Shown here piece after piece: positions 5,284 through 28,124 of a DNA stretch of 42,548 bases. This DNA is from Spirochaetaceae bacterium (GTDB lineage Bacteria; Spirochaetota; Spirochaetia; Treponematales; Rectinemataceae). The notes under the pieces are model-generated. The model was given only the letters and a program-made list of their open reading frames with translations. It was not told the DNA's origin and did no database searches. The stretch lies in assembly GCA_025356015.1 (NCBI GenBank), contig JANXYO010000066.1:1-42548 (forward strand), written 5' to 3'. A program made the translations under genes and the position numbers. The stretch's first letter is position 1, and every line of letters starts with the position of its first letter.

Positions 5284-6453
5284 ATGATGAAGGCTGGTCC
5301 GAGAATTGCCCATCTGAACTACGCGGACGAGCCGGGTGTCATCAGGAAGATCCGCGAGGAGGCTCGTGCCGCGGTCGACTTGAGCCTTCCCATCGATTTC
5401 TACGTCATCGACTACGGCATGCACAACGCCGACGAGGGGAACCTGCATTTCCGCGGCCGCAAGGAACCCTTCATCAAGGGCAAGCTCGGTTTCCTCACCG
5501 ACGCCCTCTTTGGGCACGTCGACCTCATCGCCGAGCTGCCCGAGCTGGCTGGCTATGATTTCTATGTCCTCAGGTTTGGCAACCTTTTCCTGAGGCAGCT
5601 GCCAACCTACCGTCGCCACGGATCGCGGATGGTCACCGAGCACCACAGCGACGAGCTCGCCGAGCTGCTGCTCAGGCCCACCTTGGGCAGGAGGTTCATG
5701 GCGGCGGTATCGAGCATAAAAAGCAGAAAGGGCCTGGCCTTGGTCGCTGGCATTGTTGGTGTCACGTCCGAGGTTCTTGCGATCGAACTCGCGAAATCGG
5801 GGCCAAAGCCGAGCCTGGTCCTGCCCAACGGTGTCTCCCTGCCGCCTGAGCCTCCTCCTCCGCGGGCCTATCGTCGGGGCGAACAGCTGCGCATCGTCTT
5901 CTCGGCCGCGGACTTCCAGGCCTGGCAGGGCCTCGACAGGCTTGTCGCGGCCCTGGCCGCCTACCGTGGCGAGACGGTCCTCCAGATCAACCTCGCAGGC
6001 AGGCTCAGCGATACGCAAGCGGCCTCCCTCGCCCAGCTAAAGGGCCTGCCCAGGATCGATATCGTCGTCCATGGCCTCATCAAGCCAGAGGCGGTACGCT
6101 CGCTTTACGAGCGTTGCCACCTCGGAGTCGCTGCCCTTGCGATTTCGCGCATCGGCATGCTCGAGGCCTGTCCTTTGAAGATGCGCGACTATGCTGCCTG
6201 GGGCCTCCCCGCGATCTACAGCTTCTCGGATCCGGACATACCCGCCGACTGGCCCTATATGATGCGTCTAGCCAGTGAACCGGCTCCAGTTGATCTGGCT
6301 GCTGTCGTGGCCTTCGTCGAAGGGCTTTACGCGAATGGTGATCCGGGGCCTGTGATCAGGGCCTTTGCGGCCGAGCGTCTGGACTGGAAGGCCAAGATGC
6401 GCAGCCTGTACGACTTCGTCGCTGGTCTTTACGCGCGAGCGGAAGGACCATGA
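5284..6453 (+). CDS. GT-B glycosyltransferase
   Basis: A roughly 389-residue glycosyltransferase with a GT-B layout. The N-terminal half contains VTEHHSDELAELL. The C-terminal half has LPNGVSLPPE followed by the glycosyltransferase-type strand LRIVFSAADFQAWQGLDRLV, then VVHGLIKPEAVRSLYERCHLGVAAL and CPLKMRDYAAWGLPAIY, which resembles the donor-binding segment of GT4 enzymes. Donor and acceptor cannot be assigned. Two ATG codons compete: the one at 5275 touches the GGGG following the wbpA stop, so the ATG at 5284, about 9 bases from AGGGG, is the better start. The stop overlaps the ATG of the next gene by four bases. Confidence 0.75.
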   Translation: MMKAGPRIAHLNYADEPGVIRKIREEARAAVDLSLPIDFYVIDYGMHNADEGNLHFRGRKEPFIKGKLGFLTDALFGHVDLIAELPELAGYDFYVLRFGNLFLRQLPTYRRHGSRMVTEHHSDELAELLLRPTLGRRFMAAVSSIKSRKGLALVAGIVGVTSEVLAIELAKSGPKPSLVLPNGVSLPPEPPPPRAYRRGEQLRIVFSAADFQAWQGLDRLVAALAAYRGETVLQINLAGRLSDTQAASLAQLKGLPRIDIVVHGLIKPEAVRSLYERCHLGVAALAISRIGMLEACPLKMRDYAAWGLPAIYSFSDPDIPADWPYMMRLASEPAPVDLAAVVAFVEGLYANGDPGPVIRAFAAERLDWKAKMRSLYDFVAGLYARAEGP

Positions 6454-8036
6454 GCGCCCGGGCCCGGCTCTTTTGCCCAACACCCCCACTTGAGCTGTGC
6501 ATCGTCCTCGGGCCCGGCGGGGCTCCCCTCTGGCTGCGCTCCCTTGCGGAGGGCCTGACCGAGGACGGCCATTCCCTGTCCTTTGTCGAGCTCGAGGCCC
6601 GGACCTCGTCGCCTTCCGTTCTCTGGGATGGATATCGCAGGATCCTGAGGCGATCGCTGGGATTCAGGCTTTACGCCCGGCTGGCGGGAATTCTCGCAGC
6701 CGCCGGGACCGACCAATTCGAAAAGCTTCGACCAGCCCCTGGAGACCCCAGCAAACCCTTCGACCTCTGTCTCGACTTCACCTTTGCCGGGAGCGGTCCA
6801 GAAGTCCTCCCTGCATCGAGGCTGGGAACAATTCGCCTCGGCGTCGAAGAGGAGGCCGAGGGCTGGCCCTTCCTCGCGGAGATGGCCAGGGGAGGGGAAG
6901 CTGTGCGCTGTCTTGCCGAGCACCTTGGTCCCTCGGGCAAGGCCCGGATTCTCGCCGAGGCCTGGGTCGGACTCCACCCCTATTCCTTGCAGGCATCTCT
7001 CGACAGGTTCGTCTCCAGGCTGGGCGACCTTGCGCGCAAGGCCATAAGGCAGGTAGGCACAGACGACGATAGCAGGGCCCTGGCCAAGCCAGGAGGACCT
7101 GTCCTGCAACGGCCTCCCTCGGGCTCCCTGCCGCGGCTATTCGGAAAATGCCTGCGGGAGTTCCGTAGGCGGGTATCGAAACGGCTACTGCGCCGTGAGC
7201 AGTGGATAATGGCCGTGGACCTCGCTCGCGAGGGAACCTGGTTCGACCTGGCAAGAGGCTCACGCCTCCTGCCTCCCAGGGACAGGATCTGGGCCGACCC
7301 CTTCCCGTTTCTCAGGGATGGGCGGACCTGGCTCTTCTTCGAGGAGCAGCTCTATGGCCAGAACGGCCACCTCTCATGTTTCGAGCTTTTCGAGGACGGA
7401 AGCCACGGTGAGGCGGTGACGATCCTCGAGCGGCCCTATCACCTCTCCTACCCCTACGTGTTCGAGGATTCAGGCGAGCTGTATATGGTGCCCGAGTCGA
7501 GCGAGAACGGAAACATCGACCTTTACCGCTGCTTGGACTTCCCCAATTCCTGGACCCTCGTCATGCCCCTCATCGAGGGGATCGAAGCTGCCGACACGAG
7601 CCTCCTGCACAGGGAGGACGGCTGGTGGCTTTTCACCGCGGCGAGCCCCGTGCGCGGCAACTCCCTGAACGACCAGCTCTATCTCTTCCATTCCCCCGTC
7701 CTTTTGTCGGGGGAGTGGCGGCCCCACCCATTGAACCCCGTGGTCGCCGACGTCAGGTCGGCCCGCGGGGCGGGGAGGATCTTCGAGCGCGACGGAAGGC
7801 TGTATCGCCCATCGCAGGACTGCGCCTCGTCCTATGGCTACTGCGTGTGCCTCAACGAGATCGTCGAGCTCTCTGATACGCGCTATCGGGAAACGCCACG
7901 GGTCACACTATCGCCAGAAGCCACGGAGGACCTCGTCGCGCTCCACACATTCAACACAATTGGAAAGATTTCCGTCATCGACGGGAAGATCATGAGAGGC
8001 AGGATGCTCGACCTGCGCGCGAAGGGGCGGCGGTGA
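6450..8036 (+). CDS. Two-domain protein: degenerate formyltransferase-like domain plus GINT1-like beta-propeller
   Basis: A 528-residue protein that I read as two domains. Residues about 1-240 begin with LELCIVLGPGGAP and include FDLCLDFTFAG and a weak LGTIRLGVEEE segment. This is reminiscent of the formyltransferase-like domain found in front of such propellers, but without its catalytic residues visible. Residues about 250-520 are the clear part: WADPFPF, WLFFEEQ, SYPYVF, YMVPESSENGNIDLYRC and WWLFTAAS. These are blade repeats of the five-bladed propeller seen at the N-terminus of plant glucosamine inositolphosphorylceramide transferase and related to GH43/GH32 folds. The role is probably glycan binding or processing. 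It overlaps both neighbours by four bases and sits among glycosyltransferases. Confidence 0.7.
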   Translation: MSARARLFCPTPPLELCIVLGPGGAPLWLRSLAEGLTEDGHSLSFVELEARTSSPSVLWDGYRRILRRSLGFRLYARLAGILAAAGTDQFEKLRPAPGDPSKPFDLCLDFTFAGSGPEVLPASRLGTIRLGVEEEAEGWPFLAEMARGGEAVRCLAEHLGPSGKARILAEAWVGLHPYSLQASLDRFVSRLGDLARKAIRQVGTDDDSRALAKPGGPVLQRPPSGSLPRLFGKCLREFRRRVSKRLLRREQWIMAVDLAREGTWFDLARGSRLLPPRDRIWADPFPFLRDGRTWLFFEEQLYGQNGHLSCFELFEDGSHGEAVTILERPYHLSYPYVFEDSGELYMVPESSENGNIDLYRCLDFPNSWTLVMPLIEGIEAADTSLLHREDGWWLFTAASPVRGNSLNDQLYLFHSPVLLSGEWRPHPLNPVVADVRSARGAGRIFERDGRLYRPSQDCASSYGYCVCLNEIVELSDTRYRETPRVTLSPEATEDLVALHTFNTIGKISVIDGKIMRGRMLDLRAKGRR

Positions 8037-11436: not shown

Positions 11437-11886
11437 TTACTTGAACAGGGTCATCTTACGCGCCACGAATTTCCAGACGTAGCCGATGATGGCCGAGACT
11501 ATCCTTCCCAGCATGTAGTGGAGCCCAAGGAGCCCGGTCCAGACCCAGAGGATGAGGGCGTTCAGTCCCATACCAGCGATGCCTATCGCCACAAAGATGC
11601 CAAACTCTGCCGCCTTGTTGTCCATCGATCGTTTGGCGAAGGCCCATCTGACCGACAGCAGGTAGCTGACTATCATCCCGGTTCCGTAGCTGATCGTCGC
11701 CGAGATCAGGTAATAGATGTGGACCATGTCGGTGAGGACATAGAGCAGGCCGAAGTCGAAGACGAAGGATATCGCCGACACCACGAAATAGCGGAACAGC
11801 TCGACCCCGGGATGGTTTGTCCGCTTCTTTATGAGGGTGTGCGCGAGCCTGGCGAGCCCTCTGGTTTCCTTGACCGTTTCATCCAT
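11437..11886 (-). CDS. GtrA-family membrane protein
   Basis: A 149-residue protein with four predicted membrane segments and the GtrA family signature. ELFRYFVVSAISFVFDFGLLYVLTD is TM1, followed by SATISYGTGMIVSYLLSVRWAF, which matches the N-x-x-W-x-F type loop (here SVRWAF). Then come TM3 and TM4, ending KFVARKMTLFK. GtrA proteins are thought to flip polyprenyl-phosphate-linked monosaccharides in three-component glycosylation systems. The reading frame is open further upstream, but the ATG at 11886 gives the family's normal length. It overlaps the end of the preceding minus-strand glycosyltransferase by 8 bases (ATGGATGA), so it is coupled to it. Confidence 0.88.
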   Translation of the reverse strand: MDETVKETRGLARLAHTLIKKRTNHPGVELFRYFVVSAISFVFDFGLLYVLTDMVHIYYLISATISYGTGMIVSYLLSVRWAFAKRSMDNKAAEFGIFVAIGIAGMGLNALILWVWTGLLGLHYMLGRIVSAIIGYVWKFVARKMTLFK

Positions 11887-13006
11887 TGCAGAGTTCCGTG
11901 TAGACTCCGAGGAGCTTCTCTGCGCTCTTCTTCCAGTCAAAGAGGTGGAGTCTTGCCTTGCCGCGCTCGACCAGACGGGCACGGAGCTCGGGATCCGAGA
12001 GGAGGCGGTTGAGGGCCTCTGACAGGGCGACCGAGTCTGAGGGGTCCTCGACTACGAGGGCGGCATCCCCGACGACCTCGCGCATCGCGAAGCCTGGCGT
12101 TGTCACAACGGGGCAGCCGCAGGCCATGGCCTCGACATTGGGCATGCCGAAGCCCTCTGCGAACGAGGGAAAGACGAAGACCGATGCCGCGTTCATGAGC
12201 TCGACGATGTCGCGCTCGCTCACGAATCCCGGAGTGACGAGGCGCTCGGCTATGCCCAGGGACCGGGCGCGCTCGAGAACGCTTTCGTCGTTCCAGCCTC
12301 CTCCGGCGCAGACCAAGCTGTGGGGGGCATCGTGCTCCAGCACGAGGCGTGAGAAGGCCTCGAGCAGGGTCCACGGGTTCTTCCGCTCCGACATCCTGCT
12401 CACGTGGAGGACGAAGGGTTCCTTGATGCCATAGCGCTCAGGTGCAGTGAGCTCGGCCTTGTCGAGTTCCTGGTAGGAAGGAGTCAGGCCGTTGTAGCAG
12501 ACGGTGATGTGCTCGCGAGGGTAGCGGTAGCGGGAAACGAAGAATGCGGCGCTCGTCTCCGAGACCGTCACGATGTGGTCCATGTGGCGGATGTAGGTGG
12601 GGACCACGAGGTACTCGTGGGCGAGCTCGATGCTGTTGTAGAACTGGGGCACAAGGAGCTGCTCGGCGCCGTGGACCGTGGCCATCTTCTTGCCGGGGAC
12701 TGCCCAGATCGGGGCATAGATGGTCAGCGGCGAGTAGTGGACCAGGTCGAAGCGTTCGCGGCGCAGGACGGCTGCGGAGCGCAGGGGGTTGCGTGGCACG
12801 ATCAGCTCGCGGACCCGCTTGTATATGGGATTCTCGCTCTCCCGGTAGTGGACAAAGGTGAAGTCGAAGCGTCCGGCGTTGAGGTCCAGGGTCGCGCCAA
12901 GGATTTCGTTGAGGTGGTGCCCCGAACCCGAGGTCCATCGGTCGAGGGGCTTGGTAAAGACGGCAATGCGCGGACGGCCTGCCGCAAGCGAGCCCTTGTT
13001 TGGCAT
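11879..13006 (-). CDS. GT4 glycosyltransferase
   Basis: A 375-residue GT4 enzyme on the strand opposite to the locus. Features are SGSGHHLNEIL in the acceptor domain, RFDLVHYSPL, KKMATVHGAEQLLVPQFY, HIVTVSETSAAFF, PFVLHVSRMSERKNPWTLLEAF, VFPSFAEGFGMPNVEAMACGCPVVTTP and FDWKKSAEKLL. EGFGMPNVEA supplies the EX7E catalytic pattern. It belongs to the mannosyl/rhamnosyl GT4 type with an aberrantly compact N-terminus. The open frame extends upstream, but the ATG at 13006 follows a likely promoter (see 13,014-13,043) and gives a sensible N-terminus, MPNKGSLAAGRPRIAVF. It is followed by gtrA with an 8-base overlap. Confidence 0.85.
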   Translation of the reverse strand: MPNKGSLAAGRPRIAVFTKPLDRWTSGSGHHLNEILGATLDLNAGRFDFTFVHYRESENPIYKRVRELIVPRNPLRSAAVLRRERFDLVHYSPLTIYAPIWAVPGKKMATVHGAEQLLVPQFYNSIELAHEYLVVPTYIRHMDHIVTVSETSAAFFVSRYRYPREHITVCYNGLTPSYQELDKAELTAPERYGIKEPFVLHVSRMSERKNPWTLLEAFSRLVLEHDAPHSLVCAGGGWNDESVLERARSLGIAERLVTPGFVSERDIVELMNAASVFVFPSFAEGFGMPNVEAMACGCPVVTTPGFAMREVVGDAALVVEDPSDSVALSEALNRLLSDPELRARLVERGKARLHLFDWKKSAEKLLGVYTELCNG

Positions 13007-13013
13007 GGCTCGT

Positions 13014-13043
13014 ATGATATACGGTGTCTGGCCGTGGAGGCAA
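13014..13043 (-). promoter_or_regulatory. Putative sigma-70 promoter for the minus-strand GT4-gtrA pair
   Basis: Reading the minus strand, TTGCCT (13043-13038) is followed by 18 bases and TATCAT (13019-13014). The ATG of the GT4 gene is only 7 bases beyond the -10 box, so the transcript would start at or next to the start codon. No convincing ribosome-binding site is present. The call is by eye on two hexamers (4/6 and 5/6 matches). Confidence 0.4.
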
Positions 13044-13123
13044 GCCACGGCCGAAAGCCGCGCCGCCTGGCAAATGCTACGCGCCCGGTGCCGATGGGCG
13101 CGGGAAAGGATTTCGAGAGAGCC

Positions 13124-14200
13124 ATGAGCCGGATCACCGTACTCGCCATCCACGACAGGATCGGCACCTTCCATTCCCTGAAGGCCTTCCTCTTCGCCTC
13201 TGACCAGAGGCGCTTTGTCTTCACCGATTCGCCCGAGTGGTGCCTCAAGCACGACCGCAACAAGGTCCTCATCATGGTGAGGCAATTCATCAAGCCCGAC
13301 CAGGTCGACCTCGAGCTGATGAAGCTGCTGCGGTCCAAATACGAGCGCATCGCCTTCTTCCACGACGACGCGGGCGGGGGCATCCCCCGGCTCGAGGTCC
13401 TCCCCCTGGTGGATCTCTTCTACTCCAAGGCCCTGTTCAGGGACCGCTCCCTCTATCGCCGCCAGCTCTACGGCAAGGAGCTTTACTCCGACTACTACCA
13501 CGGCAAGTACGCAGTGACCGATCAGGACGCCAAGGCAAGGGCAGTCGTGGAGGACCAGGCCCAGCTCTCCAAGCTCCGCCTCTCCTGGAACATAGGCGTG
13601 GGCGATTACCCCCGAGGCAAGCTGCGCCAGCGCGCGGGGGTCGCCGTCTCGATGGCCCTGGGTTTCAGGGCCGCGAAGCCCTTCTTTGGCAGCGGCGCCC
13701 TTCCCCGCGATCCTGTGGGGTCAAACCGCGGAACGGTGGACGTGCACGCTCGCATCCTCCTGGCGGGAAGGCCCTCGATCGCCCACCAGCGCAAGCTCAT
13801 CCTCGACCGCATCACCGGCCATCCCTCCTTCCTGATGGGCGAGACCTCGCAGGCGGCCTACAACCGGGAAGTATCGAACTCGAAGATCGTGCTCTCCCCC
13901 TTCGGCTGGGGCGAGCTCTGCCTGCGCGACTACGAGGCGGTGCTGGGGGGGGCCCTCCTCCTCAAGCCTGACATGTCCCATCTCGAGACCTGGCCCGACG
14001 TCTTTCTTCCCCACGAGACCTACGCCCCCTTCGACTGGGACGCCACCGACCTCATCGAGGTCGCCGAGCGCTATCTTGGGGACGAGGTGGCCCGGAAGCG
14101 TATCGCCGGGAGGGCCTTCGAGTGCTACCGCGACCAGCTCGGGCAGCTCGACCAGCGCTTCGAGACGGCGATCGCCGAGATCGCATCCCCAGCTTCCTGA
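13124..14200 (+). CDS. Exostosin-like glycosyltransferase family protein
   Basis: A 358-residue soluble protein. The C-terminal half carries the striking segment SNSKIVLSPFGWGELCLRDYEA near residue 255, followed by GGALLLKPDMSHLETWPD. This resembles the exostosin (GT47-like) C-terminal domain, in which S-x-F-x-x-x-P-x-G-x-G and R-x-x-E-A residues bind the nucleotide. An N-terminal FYSKALFRDRSLYRR stretch follows the first Rossmann-like half. Function is inferred from this motif only. The frame is open far upstream, where it runs antisense to the GT4 gene, so the ATG at 13124, preceded by GAGAG, is taken as the start. It is the first plus-strand gene after the inverted pair and is followed 18 bases later by the GT-C gene. 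Confidence 0.65.
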   Translation: MSRITVLAIHDRIGTFHSLKAFLFASDQRRFVFTDSPEWCLKHDRNKVLIMVRQFIKPDQVDLELMKLLRSKYERIAFFHDDAGGGIPRLEVLPLVDLFYSKALFRDRSLYRRQLYGKELYSDYYHGKYAVTDQDAKARAVVEDQAQLSKLRLSWNIGVGDYPRGKLRQRAGVAVSMALGFRAAKPFFGSGALPRDPVGSNRGTVDVHARILLAGRPSIAHQRKLILDRITGHPSFLMGETSQAAYNREVSNSKIVLSPFGWGELCLRDYEAVLGGALLLKPDMSHLETWPDVFLPHETYAPFDWDATDLIEVAERYLGDEVARKRIAGRAFECYRDQLGQLDQRFETAIAEIASPAS

Positions 14201-20036: not shown

Positions 20037-20984
20037 ATGAAGCTCATCATCCAGATGCCCTGCTACAACGAGGCCGGCACCCTGGCCCTCGCCCTCGCGG
20101 AGCTACCGCGCTCGGTCAAGGGCTTCGACCAGGTCGAATGGCTCATCATCGACGACGGGAGCACCGACGACACCGTCGACGTGGCAAGGCGCTCGGGTGT
20201 GAACCATGTCGTCAGCTTCAAGAAGAACCAGGGGCTCGCGCGCGGCTACATCGCGGGCCTGCGAGCCTGCCTCGAGCTCGGCGCCGACGTCATAGTCAAC
20301 ACCGATGCCGATAACCAGTACAACGCCGGCGACATCCCGGCCCTGGTCACGCCCATCCTCGAGGGCAGGGCCGACATCGTCATCGGCGCCCGACCGATCA
20401 ACACGATCGAGCATTTCTCCCTTGCGAAGAAGGGCCTGCAGAGGCTCGGATCCCTTGTGGTGCGCAAGGTGAGCGGGACCGACGTCGAGGACGCGCCTTC
20501 GGGCTTCAGGGCGGTGAGCAGGGATGCGGCCATGCGTCTCCATGTGTTCAACGACTACACCTATACCCTGGAGACGATCATACAGGCGGGACGGAAGAAC
20601 ATGGTGGTACTCTCCGTGCCGATCAGGGTGAACGAGGACCTGCGGCCCTCGAAGCTCGTGAAGAGCATACCCAACTATATCAAGAAGTCCATCTTCACGA
20701 TGCTCAGGATCTTCGTGGTCTACAAGCCATTCAAGTTCTTCATGAGCATCGGCGCCAGCGTGTTCACCCTGGGCCTGGTCGTGGGTCTGCGCTTCCTGTA
20801 CTTCCTCCTGAGCGGCCAGGGCGGCGGCCACATCCAGTCCCTGATCCTTGTCTCGATCCTCATGGGCATTGGCTTCCAGACCATGATAACCGCCTTCCTC
20901 GCCGACCAGTTCGCCGTGAACCGGACACTTCTCGAGGATATCGAGTACCGGACCTGGAAGAACCGGGAGCCCGAGGGGAAATGA
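20037..20984 (+). CDS. GT2 dolichol/polyprenyl-phosphate sugar transferase (second copy)
   Basis: A 315-residue GT2 enzyme with two C-terminal membrane helices. IIQMPCYNEAGTL opens the GT-A domain, LIIDDGSTDDTVDVA and KKNQGLARGYIAGL follow, and VIVNTDADNQYNAGDIP has the DXD-type motif. SGFRAVSRDAA and the helices FFMSIGASVFTLGLVVGLRFLYFL and SLILVSILMGIGFQTMITAFLADQF complete it. This form is typical of enzymes charging polyprenyl phosphate with a hexose or amino sugar. Two starts compete, at 20016 and 20037; AAGGAAG at 20026-20032 supports the ATG at 20037. It follows the second GT-C gene and overlaps the epimerase gene by four bases. Confidence 0.88.
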   Translation: MKLIIQMPCYNEAGTLALALAELPRSVKGFDQVEWLIIDDGSTDDTVDVARRSGVNHVVSFKKNQGLARGYIAGLRACLELGADVIVNTDADNQYNAGDIPALVTPILEGRADIVIGARPINTIEHFSLAKKGLQRLGSLVVRKVSGTDVEDAPSGFRAVSRDAAMRLHVFNDYTYTLETIIQAGRKNMVVLSVPIRVNEDLRPSKLVKSIPNYIKKSIFTMLRIFVVYKPFKFFMSIGASVFTLGLVVGLRFLYFLLSGQGGGHIQSLILVSILMGIGFQTMITAFLADQFAVNRTLLEDIEYRTWKNREPEGK

Positions 20985-22045
20985 AGCACCTAGTCACCGG
21001 CGCAGCCGGGTTCATCGGTTCCCACCTGGCGAGGCGCCTGCTAGAGCGGGGGGACGAGGTCCTGGGCCTCGACTCGATCAACGACTACTACGACCCCGCC
21101 TTGAAGTTCGCCCGCCTCGCCACCCTTGGCTTTGGTGGCGAGGCCGCTGAGCAGGGCCGCGTTGTGCGATCCAGCTCGCAGCCGAAGCTTTGCTTCGTCC
21201 GCGCCTCCCTCGAGGACCGCGGCGCCATGGAGGCCGTCTTCGCAGCGCATTCCTTCGACAGGGTATGCAACCTCGCGGCCCAGGCTGGGGTGCGCTACAG
21301 CATCGACAATCCCCGCGCCTACATCGAGTCGAACATCACGGGCTTCCTGAACGTCCTTGAGTGCTGCAGGGCGGCGAAGACGGCCCACCTTGTCTACGCA
21401 TCCTCGTCCTCGGTCTACGGCCTCGAGGTCTCGAGGCCCTTCTCGAACCACGGTCCCGTCGACCACCCGGTGAGCCTGTACGCGGCGACCAAGCGCTCCA
21501 ACGAGCTCATGGCCCACACCTACAGCCACCTGTACGCCCTGCCGACGACCGGCCTGCGCTTCTTCACGGTCTACGGGCCCTGGGGGAGACCCGACATGGC
21601 CTACTTCAAGTTCGCCAGCGCGATCCTCGAGGGCCGGGCCATCGATGTCTACAACAAGGGCGACATGCTCCGGGATTTTACCTACATCGACGACATCGTC
21701 GATGGCGTGGTGCGGGTGATCGACCGGGTGCCCCAGCCCAACCCGACCTGGGACGCCGCCCAGCCCGATCCCGCGAGCTCGAGCGCGCCTTTCAAGGTCT
21801 ACAACATTGGCAACCACCGGGCCGTGCGGCTCGCCGACTTCATAGCGACCCTCGAGCGGGTCCTCGGTGCCGAGGCTGTGAAGAACTACCTGCCCATGCA
21901 GCCGGGTGACGTCTACGCGACGGAGGCCGATGTGTCCGACCTCATGGCCGATTTTGGCTGGTGTCCGAGCACCGAGATCGCCGAAGGCCTCGGCCGCTTC
22001 GCCGCCTGGTTCAAGACCTGGCAGGCCGCCAGCGGCGGGAATTAG
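20981..22045 (+). CDS. UDP-glucuronate 4-epimerase family protein
   Basis: A 354-residue extended SDR enzyme. The NAD motif is GAAGFIG at residues 7-13. SINDYYDPALK near residue 32 is the hallmark of the CapI/LspL UDP-glucuronate 4-epimerases. The catalytic residues are Y167 and K171 (YAATK), with SSSSVYG upstream, and RDFTYIDDIVDG and the QPGDV loop are present. The product should be UDP-galacturonic acid, a donor for one of the transferases nearby. An unusual insertion (GFGGEAAEQGRVVRSSS, residues about 50-66) lies after the ARLATL segment. It overlaps the GT2 before it by four bases. After it, 43 bases separate it from the TagF-like gene, the first clear gap in this run. Confidence 0.87.
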   Translation: MKHLVTGAAGFIGSHLARRLLERGDEVLGLDSINDYYDPALKFARLATLGFGGEAAEQGRVVRSSSQPKLCFVRASLEDRGAMEAVFAAHSFDRVCNLAAQAGVRYSIDNPRAYIESNITGFLNVLECCRAAKTAHLVYASSSSVYGLEVSRPFSNHGPVDHPVSLYAATKRSNELMAHTYSHLYALPTTGLRFFTVYGPWGRPDMAYFKFASAILEGRAIDVYNKGDMLRDFTYIDDIVDGVVRVIDRVPQPNPTWDAAQPDPASSSAPFKVYNIGNHRAVRLADFIATLERVLGAEAVKNYLPMQPGDVYATEADVSDLMADFGWCPSTEIAEGLGRFAAWFKTWQAASGGN

Positions 22046-22088: not shown

Positions 22089-23354
22089 GTGTACTATCTC
22101 TTCCTGCTGCTGTTCCTTTTCAGGCCGGTGAACGTCCACGCCTATCTCGACCCCGGGACGGGGAGCCTTCTGCTCTATGCCCTCGTGGGCATCGCGACGA
22201 CGATCGTCTTCGCCGTTAGGAACGCCTGGTACTCCTTGAGGACCAAGCTGGCCTTCGGCAAGGGCCTGGCAGTCTCCAAGGGCCTCCCCGACATAGTGTT
22301 CCACTCCGAGGGGGGCAAGTACTGGCAGACCTTCGAGCCCGTCATCGCGGCCCTGTCGAGGCGCGGCGTCGCATGCGGCTATGTGACCCCTGATCCCAAG
22401 GACCCTGCCTTCGCCCTGGGGTCTCCGGCCTTCCAGGTGAAACATCCCGGGAGCGAGCTGCTGACGATCGCCTTCATGAACTCCTTGAGCGCGGCCATGG
22501 TCGTCTCGACGACCCCCCACCTCGATGTCTACCAGCTGCGGCGCTCGAAGAAGGTCGCCCACTATAGCCACCTCTTCCACTCCCCCACAGACATCGCCTT
22601 CAACGAGAAATATGCCTTCGACTACTACGACTCCCTGCTGACCGTCGGCGCCTACCAGGAGGCCAGCGTCCGCCAGCTCGAGACGCGCCGCCGTCTCCCC
22701 GCCAAGGCCCTGTATCCCACCGGCTGCCCCTATTACGATGTGATGCTCGAGGAGCTGCGCGCCCTGCCCAGGGATGGCGGGCCTCCCGCGGTGCTCTACG
22801 CTCCCACCTGGGGACAGCGGAGCTCGGTTCTCAAGTTCGGGTCGAGGATCATCGACGTCCTTGCGGCCGCCTCGATGCGCGTGATCTTTAGGCCCCACCC
22901 GCAGTTCTACATCTCGCACGCCGAGCTCTTCAGGAAGATCGAGCGGAACCTCGTCTCGAAGGGTCTCGTGGAGATAGACAGGAAGCGCAGCGGGGTCGGG
23001 AGCATGCTCGCCTCGGACATCATGATCACCGACCTCTCGGGGATCCTCTTCGACTACGCTTTCCTGCTCGAGAGGCCGGTCATCCTCGCGAACTGGGAGG
23101 CCGACGTGGGCGGGCACGAGGGCGAGGACATGACGGGCGAGCTCTGGGACATCGCGACGAGCAAGCGCCTCGCCACCTGCATCGACGATGCCTCCATAGA
23201 GGGACTCCCTTCTGTCGTCAGGAGGTCCCGGGAATCAAGCCGGACCAACTCCGAGCTCATCAAGGGAATCCGGGACGGAAGCATCTACAATTTCGGGACG
23301 GCCGGCGAGGCCGCTGCAACGAACATAATGGCGATCCTCGAGGGCATCAGATGA
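22089..23354 (+). CDS. TagF/TagB-like CDP-glycerol glycerophosphotransferase
   Basis: A 421-residue protein. An N-terminal hydrophobic segment (residues 1-12) precedes the motif AYLDPGTGSLLLYALVG, a second membrane helix, and a GT-B domain of the CDP-glycerol glycerophosphotransferase family. Diagnostic C-terminal features are VLYAPTWGQ, VIFRPHPQ, MLASDIMITDLSGILFDYAFLLERPVI and the tail. The HP and D-L-S-G-I-x-F-D-Y elements bind CDP-glycerol in TagF. HYSHLFHSPTD holds another conserved histidine. It should polymerise or attach glycerol-phosphate or another polyol-phosphate. The GTG start at 22089 lies nine bases after AAAAGGAG. It overlaps the YidC-phosphotransferase fusion gene by four bases. 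Such enzymes are well known from Gram-positive teichoic acids and are less usual here. Confidence 0.87.
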   Translation: MYYLFLLLFLFRPVNVHAYLDPGTGSLLLYALVGIATTIVFAVRNAWYSLRTKLAFGKGLAVSKGLPDIVFHSEGGKYWQTFEPVIAALSRRGVACGYVTPDPKDPAFALGSPAFQVKHPGSELLTIAFMNSLSAAMVVSTTPHLDVYQLRRSKKVAHYSHLFHSPTDIAFNEKYAFDYYDSLLTVGAYQEASVRQLETRRRLPAKALYPTGCPYYDVMLEELRALPRDGGPPAVLYAPTWGQRSSVLKFGSRIIDVLAAASMRVIFRPHPQFYISHAELFRKIERNLVSKGLVEIDRKRSGVGSMLASDIMITDLSGILFDYAFLLERPVILANWEADVGGHEGEDMTGELWDIATSKRLATCIDDASIEGLPSVVRRSRESSRTNSELIKGIRDGSIYNFGTAGEAAATNIMAILEGIR

Positions 23355-26242
23355 CTCTGCTCTACGACATCTTCATCCTGCCCCTGGAGACCCTGTTCTC
23401 CCTCGTCTTCGGGATCTTCTACCGTCTCTCGGGCAGATACGGTTTCTCCATAATCCTCTTGAGCCTGTTCTTCACCGCCCTCACGACTCCCATCTATTTT
23501 CTGGCAGAGAAGTGGAAGAAAAAGGAGTTCGCCTTCCAGGCGAGGATGGCCGCCGAGCTGGCGAGCGTGAAGAAGCACTACTCGGGGCAGAAGCGATTCT
23601 ACCTCGTCAAGAACGTCCACCGCCTCCATGGCTATAGGCCGATCTACGCCCTCCGGTCCTCGGTGGGCATCCTGGTGCAGATCCCCTTCTTCTTCGCCGC
23701 CTACCATTTTCTCTCCACCTACGGCGCCTTCTCGGGAGTGGCCTTCCTCGCCCTCCGAGACCTCGGAAAGCCCGATGGCCTCCTGGGCGGGGTCAACCTC
23801 CTGCCCTTCGTCATGACAGCCATCAACCTCTCATCATCCCTGTACTATACAAAGGGGGCGACCAGGTCTGAGCTGCTCCAGCTCTTCGGCCTCGCGGCCT
23901 TCTTCCTCGTCGTCCTGTACGCGAGCCCATCTGCCCTCCTCCTGTACTGGACGATGAACAACCTCCTCTCCCTGCTCAAGAACGTGACAGTCTCCCTGCT
24001 GCGGCCCAGACCCGAGGGGGAGGAAGCCCCGAGCTCAGGCCTGCCGCGCATGGGCGACCTTGTCCGCTCTGCCTTGAGCCGCGAGTCCCTCTGGTTCTGG
24101 TCCCTCCTGTTCTTCTCCTGCCTCGTCGCAGCCCAGACCTGGTGGCTGTCCGCCCATCGCTCCACCTTCAAGTACTGCATCGTGGCGGGCTTCGCGGCGG
24201 GGGCCCTGGCCACGGCCCTCCTCGTCGCAAACGCCATCTTCTCGAAGGCCCGGGGCAGTTTCACCATGCGCCGTCTCGCTCCGATCGCGACCCTGTGGAT
24301 GGTCTATGCCGTCGTACTTTACGTGCTCTTCTTCGACAGGAAGCAAAGCGTCTACATATCGAATCCCAACATCAAGCTCCTCTCTGTCCTCCTGGGCGAG
24401 TGCATCGCCTTTCTCTCCGTCTCGAGGCTTCTGGGGCCGCACCGCGTGGACAGCGATGTCCCCGACCAGGGCTGGGCGGCCTTCGCCTCTCTGCTCGCCC
24501 TCTACACTGCCCAGGTCTTCGTCTTCTCCCCGTCGATCATCTTCTCCTCCTCCCCTGGTGACATAGGCATGAGCCTCGCGGGCTTCGTGCTGGCCAACCT
24601 GCCCTACGCACTTGGCTTCGGCGCCCTCTGCTCCCTCCTGTATCGGCTGGGAGGGCAGGGCCTGCGGCGCCTCCTGAACATCGGCCTCCTTTCGGCCATC
24701 CTGCTCTCCCTGCTCTACAGCATCCTGCTCAGGACGGACGTGGGGAGCCTCGACGAATTTTTCCTGCAGAAGGCCTATGTCCTCGACTACATTCCTGCCG
24801 CAAGCTACCTGCTCGACGCCCTCGTGCTCACGGCGACCGTGGCCCTTGCACGTTACATGCTCCCGAGGCTCAAGGGCCTCCTGCCGGCGATATGTCTGGT
24901 CACCATGATGGTCTTCGGACTAAGGACCTACGTGGAGATATCCTCCCTCCCGGCGGCTGCCCCCACGGTGACAGAAGCGGGTGGAAGCAGCCTGCCCCCC
25001 GACTCAAGCCTCGTCCACGGCTTCTCGAAGACCAGGAGAAATGTCGTTTTCTTCATCGCCGACATGTTCAACGGGAACTATCTGGGCAGGATCCTCAAGG
25101 AATCGCCCGAGTACGCGACCCGTCTCGGGGGCTTCTCCTGGTACGCCGACACCCTGTCGCTCTCCTCTGTGACCGCCACTTCCCTGTCGGGCCTGCTCGG
25201 AGGCCTGAAATATGGCCCCGAGCAACTCAACAGCCAGGACGGCACAGGAACCGAGAAGATCCTCAAGGCTGGCAGGGAGTTCTTCACGGCCTTCGCCGCC
25301 CAAGGCTACCGTGTCGCCATCGTGAACCCGGTCTATCTCGAGGACCTCAAGCTGCCCGGCGTGGCCGTCGACCAGAACTCGCAGTACGTACCGTACTGGA
25401 ACAAGGAGAAGAACAAGAAGAGGGAGGTCGCCTCGGTCAGGAAGAACGCCCTCCCCATCATGGTCTCGCTTTTCCAGTCCCTTCCCACCATGCTGAAGAA
25501 CCGCCTCTATGACGACGGGAGCTGGATCATCTACCGCAAATCTGTCCAGTTCGACTACATCCGCAACAAGACGATCCGCAACCTCGCCCACCTCGATCTC
25601 CTAAGCGAGATCTCGAAGGCGGTCGCAGAGGGCCCGGGCCTCATGCTCTACATCCACAACGAGCTCGCCCACGAGCCCTATGGCATCGACGCAAAGGGCG
25701 AGATCATCGACGGGACCTTCCCCGACGATGAGACCCAGAGCTTCGTCGACAAGAAGGGCGCCTATTATTCGGCCAGGAAGACGGTCGCCGAGCTCGCCTC
25801 ATGGTTCGACTGGATGAGGCGCGAGGGCGTCTACGACAACACCATGATCGTAGTCCTCTCCGACCACGGAAACCCCTACCAGGACAACGACCTGCCGGGT
25901 CTGCCACCGCGCTACGACAGCCCGCAGAACAGGCAGCACAGCTCCTTCGCGGTTCCCCTCCTCCTGGTGAAGGATTTCGGGGCACGCGGGGAGCTCAAGG
26001 TGGACGAGCGTCTCACGAGCAACGCGGACGGCGTCGCGATGATCGCCGCCTCGGCCGGCCTCGCCGGGGACTTCGGAGCCGATCCGCGAAAGTTGGCTCC
26101 GGGAGTCGAGCGCAGCCTGAGCTTCAGCGACATCACGACCGACTGGTCGGAGTTCCTCAGGAACAAGAGCGCGAGCTTCTTCACCTTCGAGGTGACCGGC
26201 TCGATACACGAGAAGAACGCATGGAAGGTGGAAGGCCAATGA
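23351..26242 (+). CDS. YidC-like domain fused to LtaS/EptA-like alkaline-phosphatase superfamily transferase
   Basis: A 963-residue membrane protein. Residues about 1-220 are a YidC/Oxa1-like insertase domain: RYGFSIILLSLFFTALTTP, a positively charged region, SVGILVQIPFFFAAYHFLS, and SALLLYWTMNNLLSLLKN. The position aligning with E. coli YidC R366 is T42. Residues about 250-535 hold some nine more hydrophobic segments. Residues about 565-930 form an outside-facing alkaline-phosphatase superfamily domain: NVVFFIADMFNGNYLG (metal aspartate D571), SSVTATSLSGLL (candidate nucleophile T608 or T610, as in EptA/LtaS rather than the sulfatase cysteine), VVLSDHGNPY (D838, H839) and RQHSSFAVPLL (H863). 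A phosphoglycerol or phosphoethanolamine transferase is the likely activity. It overlaps both neighbours by four bases, and both are polyol-phosphate/CDP-alcohol enzymes. Confidence 0.85.
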   Translation: MTLLYDIFILPLETLFSLVFGIFYRLSGRYGFSIILLSLFFTALTTPIYFLAEKWKKKEFAFQARMAAELASVKKHYSGQKRFYLVKNVHRLHGYRPIYALRSSVGILVQIPFFFAAYHFLSTYGAFSGVAFLALRDLGKPDGLLGGVNLLPFVMTAINLSSSLYYTKGATRSELLQLFGLAAFFLVVLYASPSALLLYWTMNNLLSLLKNVTVSLLRPRPEGEEAPSSGLPRMGDLVRSALSRESLWFWSLLFFSCLVAAQTWWLSAHRSTFKYCIVAGFAAGALATALLVANAIFSKARGSFTMRRLAPIATLWMVYAVVLYVLFFDRKQSVYISNPNIKLLSVLLGECIAFLSVSRLLGPHRVDSDVPDQGWAAFASLLALYTAQVFVFSPSIIFSSSPGDIGMSLAGFVLANLPYALGFGALCSLLYRLGGQGLRRLLNIGLLSAILLSLLYSILLRTDVGSLDEFFLQKAYVLDYIPAASYLLDALVLTATVALARYMLPRLKGLLPAICLVTMMVFGLRTYVEISSLPAAAPTVTEAGGSSLPPDSSLVHGFSKTRRNVVFFIADMFNGNYLGRILKESPEYATRLGGFSWYADTLSLSSVTATSLSGLLGGLKYGPEQLNSQDGTGTEKILKAGREFFTAFAAQGYRVAIVNPVYLEDLKLPGVAVDQNSQYVPYWNKEKNKKREVASVRKNALPIMVSLFQSLPTMLKNRLYDDGSWIIYRKSVQFDYIRNKTIRNLAHLDLLSEISKAVAEGPGLMLYIHNELAHEPYGIDAKGEIIDGTFPDDETQSFVDKKGAYYSARKTVAELASWFDWMRREGVYDNTMIVVLSDHGNPYQDNDLPGLPPRYDSPQNRQHSSFAVPLLLVKDFGARGELKVDERLTSNADGVAMIAASAGLAGDFGADPRKLAPGVERSLSFSDITTDWSEFLRNKSASFFTFEVTGSIHEKNAWKVEGQ

Positions 26243-26991
26243 AATCCCAGCTACGCCGCGACTACAGCTTCGCCGAGGTGCGCTCCTCGTTGCCAAAATC
26301 GAAGAACAGCTCAGACTCTCCCTGGACCCAGTTCGTCCTGCGGCCCATCTCCATGCCCACGGCCTGGGTTTGCCTTCGCCTGGGCATCGGGGCCAATGCG
26401 GTGACCTATGCCGGGGCCGTCTTCTGCCTCATCGGGGCTATCCTCCTTGTCGTCGGCCTGCCATGGGCGGTCTGGGCCGGCTTCGCCTGCTTCTTCGTCT
26501 TCGGGGTCCTTGACTGCGCAGACGGCAACGTGGCGAGGACCCTCAAGAAGGGGAGCATCTGGGGCGAGTGGGTCGACGCCATGGGCGGCTACGTGGCCTA
26601 CACGACCCTCCTCCTCGGATCGGGCGTCCTCGCCGAGTCGGTCTCCCACGGGGCATTTCCTGGGCTTCAGGGCATTGCCCTGCCATGGGCCGGGGGCTGG
26701 GCGGCGGTAGGCGGGCTGGCCGCCGCGTCGAATGTCTTCATGCGTCTGCTCTACCAGGGCTTTCGGGCGGTGAAGCCAGACCCGGGCAAGACCGAGGTGG
26801 GCCAGGAGAAGCAGTTCAGCGAGAACATTGGCATCACCGGGGCCCTCCTGCCCCTGCTCGCCATAGGCTATGCGACCGGCTTCATCGCCTGGGTCATCCT
26901 GGCCTATGCCCTCGTCTACGGGGGAGGGGCCTTCCTCGTGAGCCTCAAGCTCATCCGCCGGGTCGAGGGGGAGATCGGGAGCGCGAGGTGA
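26239..26991 (+). CDS. CDP-alcohol phosphatidyltransferase family protein
   Basis: A 250-residue membrane protein with five to six helices. The CDP-alcohol phosphotransferase motif is visible as DCADGNVAR-x8-GEWVDAMGGY (about residues 92-118). The D-x2-D-G-x2-A-R and G-x3-D parts are intact, but the fourth aspartate, four residues after the third, is glycine. The family condenses a CDP-activated alcohol with another alcohol. Here the partner could be a polyol, lipid or glycan, since the gene follows TagF-like and LtaS-like genes. The missing fourth aspartate, proposed catalytic base in the family, is notable. The ATG at 26239 overlaps the fusion gene's stop, and its own stop overlaps the GTG of the next gene. 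Confidence 0.8.
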   Translation: MKSQLRRDYSFAEVRSSLPKSKNSSDSPWTQFVLRPISMPTAWVCLRLGIGANAVTYAGAVFCLIGAILLVVGLPWAVWAGFACFFVFGVLDCADGNVARTLKKGSIWGEWVDAMGGYVAYTTLLLGSGVLAESVSHGAFPGLQGIALPWAGGWAAVGGLAAASNVFMRLLYQGFRAVKPDPGKTEVGQEKQFSENIGITGALLPLLAIGYATGFIAWVILAYALVYGGGAFLVSLKLIRRVEGEIGSAR

Positions 26992-28124
26992 TCCGCGTCC
27001 TCGACGTCATCACCACGCCCCAGGGCGGTCGCAGGCTCCTCACCCACCGCGTCGCCGAGATAGACCGGGATCCGGAGTTCGAGGACTTCCTCGTCTGCCC
27101 GGCCGAGGACTATTTCACCAGGGCCTTCGCCGAGCTCGGGATAAAGCACATCCCGCTCGAGATGGGGCGCGAGATAGAGGCCAGGGCGGTCCCCGGCGAG
27201 CTGCGTTCGATGCTCCGCCTACTTCGCGAGCACAAGCCCGACATTGTCCATTCCCACACCTCGAAAGCCGGAGCGATAGCACGCATCGCGTGCTGGATCC
27301 ACAACCGGAGGGCGAGGACCCGGACGATCTCCATCTACCAGGTCCATTCCTTTGGCTTCAACGGCTTTTCGGGTCTCAAGCGCGCGGTCTATCTGGGCCT
27401 CGAGGTCTTCCTGTCGGGCCTAACCGACATTGTCCTCTTCCAGAACGCCCTCGAGCTCGCCCAGGCCAAGAGCCATGGCATGGGCAGGCGAGCCCGCCTT
27501 CGGTACATCGGCAACGGCATTAACTTCGCCGATTTCAAGCCCCCGGCCGGGCCCAGGCCCAGGCCCGCTTCCTGGAAGCTCGTCTGCGTGGCCCGGGTAG
27601 AGGCGAAGAAGAACCACAGGATGCTCATTCGGGCCGTCGAGCTCCTGCGCGGACGCTACGGCCACAGCGAGCTCGAGCTGTTCTGCGTCGGCGAGGTGAA
27701 CGATCGGTCAGCGCTTGAGGAGGCCGCGCGGCTCGGCCTGGAGGGCGCGGTACACTTCACAGGGGTGAAGACGAAGGATGAGGTGGCCGGCTACCTTTCC
27801 TCGTGCCAGGTCTCCGTCCTCTCCTCCGTGGCGGAGGGCCTGCCCCGCGGGCTCATGGAATCGATGCTCTTCGGCCTGCCCTGCGTCGCTACCGATGTCC
27901 CGGGCTCAAGCGAGGTGGTGGCAGACGGGGAGGACGGCTTCCTCGTCCCCCTTGGCGACCACGAGGCGATGGCCGAGCGCATCGATCGCCTCATCCGAGA
28001 GGATGGCCTTTATGAGCGCCTGTCCCGGCAGGCCATGGACAAGGCACGCTCAAGGTTCGACGAGGACCGCGTGATAGGCGAACTCAAGGGGATCTACCGG
28101 GAAGCCGTGCGGGGAAGATCCTAG
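26988..28124 (+). CDS. GT4 glycosyltransferase
   Basis: A 378-residue GT4 enzyme. It begins IRVLDVITTPQGGRRLLTHRVAEID, and KPDIVHSHTSKAGAIARIA is a typical GT4 acceptor-side segment. The donor domain has LVCVARVEAKKNHRMLIRAVELL, LFCVGEVNDR and VSVLSSVAEGLPRGLMESMLFGLPCVATDVPGSSEVV. EGLPRGLME matches the EX7E catalytic pattern. It resembles the second-step transferases of undecaprenyl-linked repeat units that often lie beside WbaP genes. The frame is open upstream; the GTG at 26988 overlapping the CDP-alcohol transferase stop is the likely start. Donor unknown. Confidence 0.85.
   Translation: MIRVLDVITTPQGGRRLLTHRVAEIDRDPEFEDFLVCPAEDYFTRAFAELGIKHIPLEMGREIEARAVPGELRSMLRLLREHKPDIVHSHTSKAGAIARIACWIHNRRARTRTISIYQVHSFGFNGFSGLKRAVYLGLEVFLSGLTDIVLFQNALELAQAKSHGMGRRARLRYIGNGINFADFKPPAGPRPRPASWKLVCVARVEAKKNHRMLIRAVELLRGRYGHSELELFCVGEVNDRSALEEAARLGLEGAVHFTGVKTKDEVAGYLSSCQVSVLSSVAEGLPRGLMESMLFGLPCVATDVPGSSEVVADGEDGFLVPLGDHEAMAERIDRLIREDGLYERLSRQAMDKARSRFDEDRVIGELKGIYREAVRGRS

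Follow-up and report, generated by a model that had tools for sequence, protein, structure and literature searches.

Known LtaS and EptA enzymes use phosphatidylglycerol (PG) or phosphatidylethanolamine (PE) directly. Lipid scrambling along the groove of the fold is described for YidC and further members of the Oxa1 family, both in vitro and in simulation (PMC10491306), and the tailoring steps that follow phosphoenolpyruvate (PEP) mutase in phosphonate pathways are called enigmatic in a study of cytidylyl activation (PMC6697681). Here we describe a gene pair from a Spirochaetaceae bacterium (assembly GCA_025356015.1; 4.17 Mb in 150 contigs, 99.4% complete) with relatives of TagF, YidC and LtaS/EptA. 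The window analyzed is the complete contig JANXYO010000066.1 (42,548 nucleotides; C147 in our numbering), in which the gene for a TagF-like cytidine diphosphate (CDP)-alcohol phosphotransferase adjoins a gene coding for a fusion of a YidC-like domain, a multi-transmembrane (TM) linker and an LtaS/EptA-type phosphotransferase domain. This gene pair, at positions 22089-26242, is the unit and probably a mobile two-gene module. Judging from sequence and gene content, we are slightly inclined to think that it decorates a surface glycan (or a glycolipid) with a small phospho- or phosphono-group activated by cytidine monophosphate (CMP), the transferred group being most likely amino-alkyl: 2-aminoethylphosphonate (AEP), phosphoethanolamine or a similar amino-alcohol phosphate.

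An earlier note on the window had taken these two genes, together with the CDP-alcohol phosphatidyltransferase-like gene that follows, for a candidate undescribed cassette that may make and attach polyol phosphate within a glycan locus. The three overlapping genes do lie there, on the plus strand and with 4-nt overlaps at both junctions, and the family assignments hold, as all four expected Pfam domains score over their curated cut-offs. The cassette itself survives in part, as a conserved TagF-type/LtaS-type pair for probable phospho-group transfer; the trio does not. The unusual feature is the YidC-like domain: its groove has lost the basic residue, and no other part of the fusion is as well conserved.

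A conserved gene pair

Co-occurrence was assessed in 99 genomes (the source genome and 98 relatives, many of them incomplete), with the fusion called at E < 1e-30, ordinary YidC proteins scoring much more poorly. The fusion is present in 37 of the 99 genomes and the TagF-like gene accompanies it in all 37, while only one of the 62 fusion-less genomes, itself 67% complete, has the TagF-like gene (Fisher P = 2e-26 overall and 1e-18 inside the three families that commonly carry the pair). The CDP-alcohol transferase is found in 13 of the 99 genomes, three of which have no pair; its enrichment with the pair is weak (10/37 pair genomes versus 3/62 others, P = 0.004), and it is missing from 27 of the 37 pair genomes. 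Independent occurrence of the genes in relatives, which the earlier note had named as grounds for refutation, is observed for the third gene and not for the two genes of the pair.

The usual setting of the CDP-alcohol transferase gene is between two glycosyltransferase genes within a glycan cluster. Two genomes, G001 and G016, share with the window a backbone of genes (those at 13034, 18466, 20016, 20981, 26239, 26988, 28171 and 29798 of the window), and there the CDP-alcohol transferase gene lies between the same two glycosyltransferase genes, the pair not being at that place. In the window, the pair is flanked by the epimerase gene on one side and the CDP-alcohol transferase gene on the other (Table 1). 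It therefore resembles a module inserted into the resident glycan cluster, of which the CDP-alcohol transferase gene is a member. The trio as one unit is ruled out by distribution and synteny. The CDP-alcohol transferase (its mechanical open reading frame, 25801-26991, was trimmed to the ATG start at 26239) keeps all residues of the DxxDGxxAR...GxxxDxxxD motif save the last Asp, which is replaced by Gly117 and is Gly in 13 of 13 homologues. This Asp is the catalytic base in known CDP-alcohol transferases, and the subfamily with Gly in its place may have an altered chemistry. A second gene of the family is found in the source genome on contig C84 (locus L199, 14440-15549; 369 aa, PF01066), at most 6 kb from another nucleoside triphosphate (NTP) transferase gene.

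An independent scan of genome contigs returned at least 561 relatives of the fusion, and the best 75 loci were studied. Represented among them are Treponema and further spirochaetes, Clostridia (Lachnospiraceae, Oscillospiraceae and others), Verrucomicrobiota, Myxococcota, Photobacterium, Neptunomonas, Parasutterella and Rhodospirillaceae. The two genes stand side by side in at least five phyla (Spirochaetota, Clostridia, Verrucomicrobiota, Myxococcota and Pseudomonadota), and Photobacterium sp. Ph5 and Neptunomonas qingdaonensis are among the carriers of the pair. No foreign gene separates the TagF-like gene from the fusion in 54 of the 70 loci that hold a fusion, and several of the others are short contigs. 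Among 72 adjacent pairs, the TagF-like gene comes first in 38 and the fusion in 34, and the genes overlap in 45; such re-formation of the adjacency, whichever gene leads, speaks for a functional link and against a single inherited arrangement. Moreover, in 29 loci the fusion genes, several in each, outnumber the TagF-like genes, by four to one for instance. A total of 143 full-length fusion proteins, that of the source genome included, were gathered across genomes, and the fusion is therefore no assembly artefact.

Some loci depart from the simple arrangement. In Treponema putidum (genome G077, locus L035, 1-19901), YidC-like, catalytic-domain and TagF-like genes form a run in which several copies are split or broken, consistent with expansion accompanied by gene decay, or possibly with variation. 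At locus L146 (5733-9847) the YidC-like part, the TagF-like protein and a 594-aa protein are encoded by three separate genes, and the end of the 594-aa gene resembles the divergent fusion of locus L126 (4566-8341). The catalytic domain is very divergent at both loci; a swap of this domain was considered and rejected, because the C-terminal part of the L126 protein still matches PF00884 and is thus a divergent version. At locus L087 (genome G076) a gene for a 704-aa DUF4015 protein, a putative glycosyl hydrolase, follows the pair, 3' of the TagF-like gene (11446-13557), and a 704-aa gene is also found near the TagF-like gene of locus L090 (12148).

The surroundings of the pair in the window form a surface-glycan cluster, with genes for glycosyltransferases, sugar aminotransferases, UGD-type dehydrogenases, epimerases, a GtrA-like protein and a WbaP-type initiator. 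Also in this cluster, at 6450-8036, is a gene for a protein with a GINT1_N domain (PF24793, the N-terminal domain of glucosamine inositolphosphorylceramide transferase); a homologue of this gene occurs at locus L040 (14071-14949).

Table 1. Positions in the window of the gene pair, the domains of the fusion and the bordering genes
Feature	Position	Strand	Details
NAD-dependent sugar epimerase	20981-22045	+	Gene of the resident cluster, next to the inserted pair on its upstream side
TagF-like CDP-alcohol phosphotransferase	22089-23354	+	GTG start, 421 aa; PF04464, E = 2.9e-13, 50 bits (cut-off 22.1)
YidC-like/multi-TM/LtaS-EptA-type phosphotransferase fusion	23351-26242	+	963 aa; PF02096 and PF00884 over cut-off
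YidC-like membrane domain of the fusion	23351-24016	+	aa 1-222; groove position Thr42, codon 23474-23476
Linker domain of the fusion	24017-25000	+	aa 223-550; poorly conserved; 9 predicted TM helices
Alkaline-phosphatase-superfamily catalytic domain of the fusion	25001-26242	+	aa 551-963; D571, T608, H774, D838, H839, K874
CDP-alcohol phosphatidyltransferase-like gene	26239-26991	+	250 aa; PF01066, E = 3e-7, over cut-off
Glycosyltransferase family 4 (GT4) gene	26988-28124	+	3' of the CDP-alcohol transferase gene, likewise in G001 and G016

The two proteins of the pair

The AlphaFold model of the TagF-like protein (predicted local distance difference test score, pLDDT, 89.8) has a glycosyltransferase-B (GT-B) fold. 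By profile search of the PDB, the nearest solved structures are TarL, TagF and Cps3D, a capsule polymerase, with which the RPHP and SDxS regions are shared. Alignment of the model with TagF/TarL covers about 345 residues with a Z of about 20, no better than with other GT-B proteins, and TagF, which is not in the Foldseek top 50 for the model, was found by a second structural aligner. The protein is short and covers PF04464 partially (151-298 of 367 model positions). Its motifs, RPHPQ (aa 268-272) and DLSG (aa 315-318), contain the residues that are invariant in the alignment, R268, P269, H270, P271 and S317. Typical of the group is a membrane helix at the N terminus that bears the nearly invariant motif Y(I/L)DPGTGS.

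The fusion matches PF02096 (YidC/60KD_IMP) at aa 30-213 (E = 6e-17; 62.5 bits versus a cut-off of 35) and PF00884 (Sulfatase) at aa 764-903 (E = 3e-6, over cut-off), and its AlphaFold model (pLDDT 84.7; predicted template modelling score 0.73) shows a YidC-like core, nine predicted TM helices and the catalytic domain. The best PDB matches of the first domain are YidC structures. The basic residue of the YidC groove, however, is replaced in the fusions: among 143 aligned proteins the position is Asn in 80, Thr in 41 and Ser in 20, with two gaps, and never Lys or Arg, whereas it is Lys or Arg in nine of nine true YidC proteins of related genomes. In seven of these nine true spirochaete YidC proteins (L189-L197) the residue is Lys instead of Arg. 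A separate, normal YidC is also encoded in the source genome, on contig C106. Moreover, S38, Y95, D142, N159, W200, N203 and K210 have become highly conserved in the YidC-like domain of the fusions, and mean pairwise identity is 52% in this domain, as compared with 35% in the catalytic domain and 23% in the linker. Distances among the TagF-like proteins also track the YidC-like domain best (r = 0.87; partial correlation 0.50 versus 0.32 for the catalytic domain; all values are descriptive). A conserved front end joined to a varying catalytic end would fit a constant donor and varying acceptors.

None of the residues N564, D571, T608, D838, H839 and K874 varies among the 143 fusions; the position of the nucleophile is always Thr, and the formylglycine motif of type I sulfatases (Cys/Ser-x-Pro-x-Arg) does not occur there. 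The closest structures are those of PbgA, LtaP, LtaS and EptC (Z 19-22), and Foldseek also places the domain in the alkaline-phosphatase superfamily. T608 begins a helix in the AlphaFold model, the catalytic residues having been assigned by sequence and position and not from superposed coordinates. Where LtaS- and EptA-type enzymes have an N-terminal domain of five TM helices, the fusion has the YidC-like domain and nine predicted TM helices instead. If the topology of YidC (N terminus outside, C terminus inside) is kept, the nine helices would place the catalytic domain outside.

Genes for a candidate donor

Two types of activation gene are enriched with the pair. A PEP mutase fused to a cytidylyltransferase is found in 17 of the 37 pair genomes (2/62 others), and a bifunctional enzyme, part LicC-like cytidylyltransferase and part CobD-like pyridoxal phosphate (PLP) enzyme, in 14 (3/62 others). 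Either route is present in 30/37 pair genomes versus 5/62 others (Fisher P = 1e-13), and both together in one genome only. The genes are also physically linked to the pair. In genome G065 the PEP mutase/cytidylyltransferase gene adjoins the TagF-like gene, and in a verrucomicrobium (Verrucomicrobium, locus L134) the genes for the TagF-like protein, the fusion, a PEP mutase/NTP transferase and an NTP transferase/AEP transaminase follow one another in this order, the PEP mutase and AEP transaminase models scoring over cut-off. At locus L146, genes resembling those for phosphonopyruvate decarboxylase (Ppd), PEP mutase and PntC-AEPT lie beside the YidC-like and TagF-like genes. In Photobacterium (L139) and Parasutterella (L137), the genomes of which yielded no PEP mutase, the pair is found 3' of genes of the PhnS2/PhnT2/PhnU2 AEP-importer type; PhnS2 scores over cut-off in L139 and the remaining importer matches below it. 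A search for PhnS2 in the relatives stayed below cut-off in all but one, and those matches are probably related ATP-binding cassette (ABC) binding proteins.

The LicC-like/CobD-like enzyme is encoded directly beside the pair in several genomes (L032, L033, L077 and L089), and its halves match LicC, PntC-AEPT of Treponema denticola and threonine-phosphate decarboxylase in the PDB. Its identification as PntC-AEPT was rejected: the PLP half is of class I/II and CobD-like, not of class V, which points to a route like that of phosphoserine or phosphothreonine decarboxylases. In the nearest relative of the source fusion in the tree (L114), an aminotransferase gene and a LicC-like gene (best PDB match, LicC) lie directly 3' of the fusion, and the source genome has orthologues of both on contig C6 (64% and 66% identical, respectively), the LicC-like gene being cut by the contig end. 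Thus, the source genome also holds a PntC/LicC-type cytidylyltransferase with a PLP enzyme. Elsewhere in this genome, on contig C19 (locus L198, 9388-11953), the gene for a LicC-like transferase is grouped with those for a class I/II PLP enzyme and a LicD-family protein; this group is another candidate system for decoration with amino-alcohol phosphate, not linked to the pair.

A search for TagD, the CDP-glycerol synthase, gave no match in the source genome, and CDP-glycerol supplied by TagD was discarded as its donor; three CTP_transf_like genes found there resemble the housekeeping genes CoaD, NadD and RibF, as judged from length only. TagD is over cut-off in four of the 99 genomes, all with the pair. 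As the genes that neighbor the pair point to CMP activation of small groups, our favored guess at what is transferred is an amino-alkyl phosphonate or phosphate.

A possible mechanism and its rivals

The activity of the pair may be pictured in four steps. A PntC/LicC-like cytidylyltransferase, whose gene lies next to the pair in relatives and on contig C6 in the source genome, would make the CMP-linked donor. At the cytosolic face, the membrane-anchored TagF-like protein, to judge from its fold and motifs, would then take the group off CMP and place it on a membrane lipid or a lipid-linked acceptor. The YidC-like domain, its groove now without the basic residue, may pass the charged lipid across the membrane or hand it over, a lipid-crossing step made plausible by analogy with the scrambling activity of YidC/Oxa1 proteins (PMC10491306). 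Finally, the extracytoplasmic catalytic domain, in which the relevant residues are conserved, would load the group on Thr608 and transfer it to the glycan, in the manner of LtaS and EptA. One TagF-like charger could supply several acceptor-specific paralogues of the fusion. In its most specific form, this would be a make-flip-transfer machine, in which the TagF-like protein charges a lipid with AEP, phosphoethanolamine or a similar group and the YidC-derived groove is a dedicated scramblase that feeds its own phosphotransferase domain; we put this forward tentatively, as possible and somewhat short of likely. If true, a protein insertase would have been turned into a lipid-donor translocator, in at least five phyla, and the machine would supply the transferase arm that phosphonate tailoring of the cell surface still lacks.

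Other roles for the two proteins have to be weighed. They could perform independent modifications of the same glycan, the TagF-like protein in the cytosol on the lipid-linked glycan and the fusion outside, with phosphoethanolamine or phosphoglycerol taken from bulk phospholipid. The direct use of PG or PE by known LtaS and EptA enzymes agrees with this, and both enzymes plausibly act on one glycan; the near-absolute co-occurrence, the adjacency in both orders and the several fusions per TagF-like protein, however, fit a shared donor better, and the YidC-like domain would be left without a role, so that we hold this to be rather unlikely. Could the YidC-like domain instead be a dedicated insertase or chaperone for its own nine-TM domain, or for the N-terminal helix of the TagF-like protein, with no part in catalysis or lipid transfer? 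The PF02096 match over cut-off, the conserved membrane helix of the TagF-like protein and the tighter correlation of the latter with the YidC-like than with the catalytic domain are in line with such a helper. We consider it improbable, as the groove residue is never Lys or Arg in the fusions and new residues of the domain have become highly conserved; moreover, no LtaS- or EptA-type enzyme is known to need a helper of this kind.

The chemistry suggested by the earlier note has its own adherents among the data. The TagF-like protein could polymerize glycerol or ribitol phosphate from CDP-glycerol or CDP-ribitol into teichoic-acid-like chains, which the LtaS-like domain would extend or attach, and the PF04464 match, the proximity to TarL, TagF and Cps3D by profile, the LtaS-like catalytic fold and the TagD genes of four pair genomes are all consistent with this. 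However, TagD is over cut-off in neither the source genome nor 33 of the 37 pair genomes, the TagF-like protein is short with a partial PF04464 match, and the linked activation genes are LicC/PntC-like and come with PLP enzymes; these genes point to amino-alkyl donors, and polyol chains appear doubtful. For the source genome in particular, it may be proposed that the three genes of the window form one pathway, in which the CDP-alcohol transferase makes a phospholipid donor for the fusion. Its 4-nt overlap with the fusion gene and its weak enrichment in pair genomes would agree, but in G001 and G016 the gene stands between the same glycosyltransferase genes with no pair there, it is missing from most pair genomes, and its last motif Asp is Gly throughout; such a pathway is improbable.

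Several points weigh against the decoration of a surface glycan with a CMP-activated amino-alkyl group as we propose it. PEP mutase was not found in the source genome, so that the PEP-mutase phosphonate route is ruled out there and the donor would not be home-made AEP. Most of the Clostridial loci yielded no donor genes, CDP-glycerol may be the donor in a few TagD-bearing species, and the nucleotide and substrate specificities of the NTP transferases are those suggested by homology. Loss of the basic groove residue would still be compatible with residual insertase activity. The co-occurrence is confounded by shared ancestry, an effect lessened by the two gene orders and the several phyla, and the scanned loci lie in part on contigs of metagenome-assembled genomes, with gene calls made by a custom script.

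Relation to known systems

Each part of the system belongs to a known family or superfamily. Judged against the open-access literature searched, what appears to be new is the fusion, its obligate TagF-like partner and the tie to phosphonate or amino-alcohol activation, and no description of a YidC-sulfatase/LtaS fusion or of the TagF-like/fusion pair was found there. For treponemes, gut and rumen Clostridia and marine Proteobacteria, the module provides concrete candidates for the final steps by which phosphonates are put on the cell surface. There, phosphonates as well as amino-alcohol phosphates can change the encounters of bacteria with immune systems, phages and antibiotics.

The activation enzymes linked to the pair are the same as those of the Pnt/Lic cytidylyl-activation pathways (PntC, LicC; PMC6697681); the clusters described in the available portion of that study, however, have LicD-like transferases or glycosyltransferases, and the TagF-like/fusion pair is not mentioned in that portion. 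With TagF, TarL and Cps3D the TagF-like protein shares the GT-B fold and alignable RPHP and SDxS regions, but it differs in its length of about 420 aa, its N-terminal DPGTGS membrane helix, its obligate fusion partner and the usual absence of TagD. The fusion has the fold of LtaS, EptA/MCR and PbgA and their invariant Thr, Asp and Asp-His set, and its catalytic domain likewise comes behind additional predicted TM helices, the number of which is odd; unlike them, it adds a YidC-like domain and nine further predicted TM helices, occurs as tandem paralogues and has a TagF-like partner. Finally, PF02096, an EH1-like helix and the core helices are common to the fusion and the YidC/Oxa1 insertases, whereas in the fusion Lys or Arg of the groove has given way to Asn, Thr or Ser, the domain is joined to a phosphotransferase and a separate, normal YidC is present in the genome. 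It appears that a YidC/Oxa1-type insertase domain has here become part of an enzyme, a case relevant to the proposal that such folds move lipids (PMC10491306).

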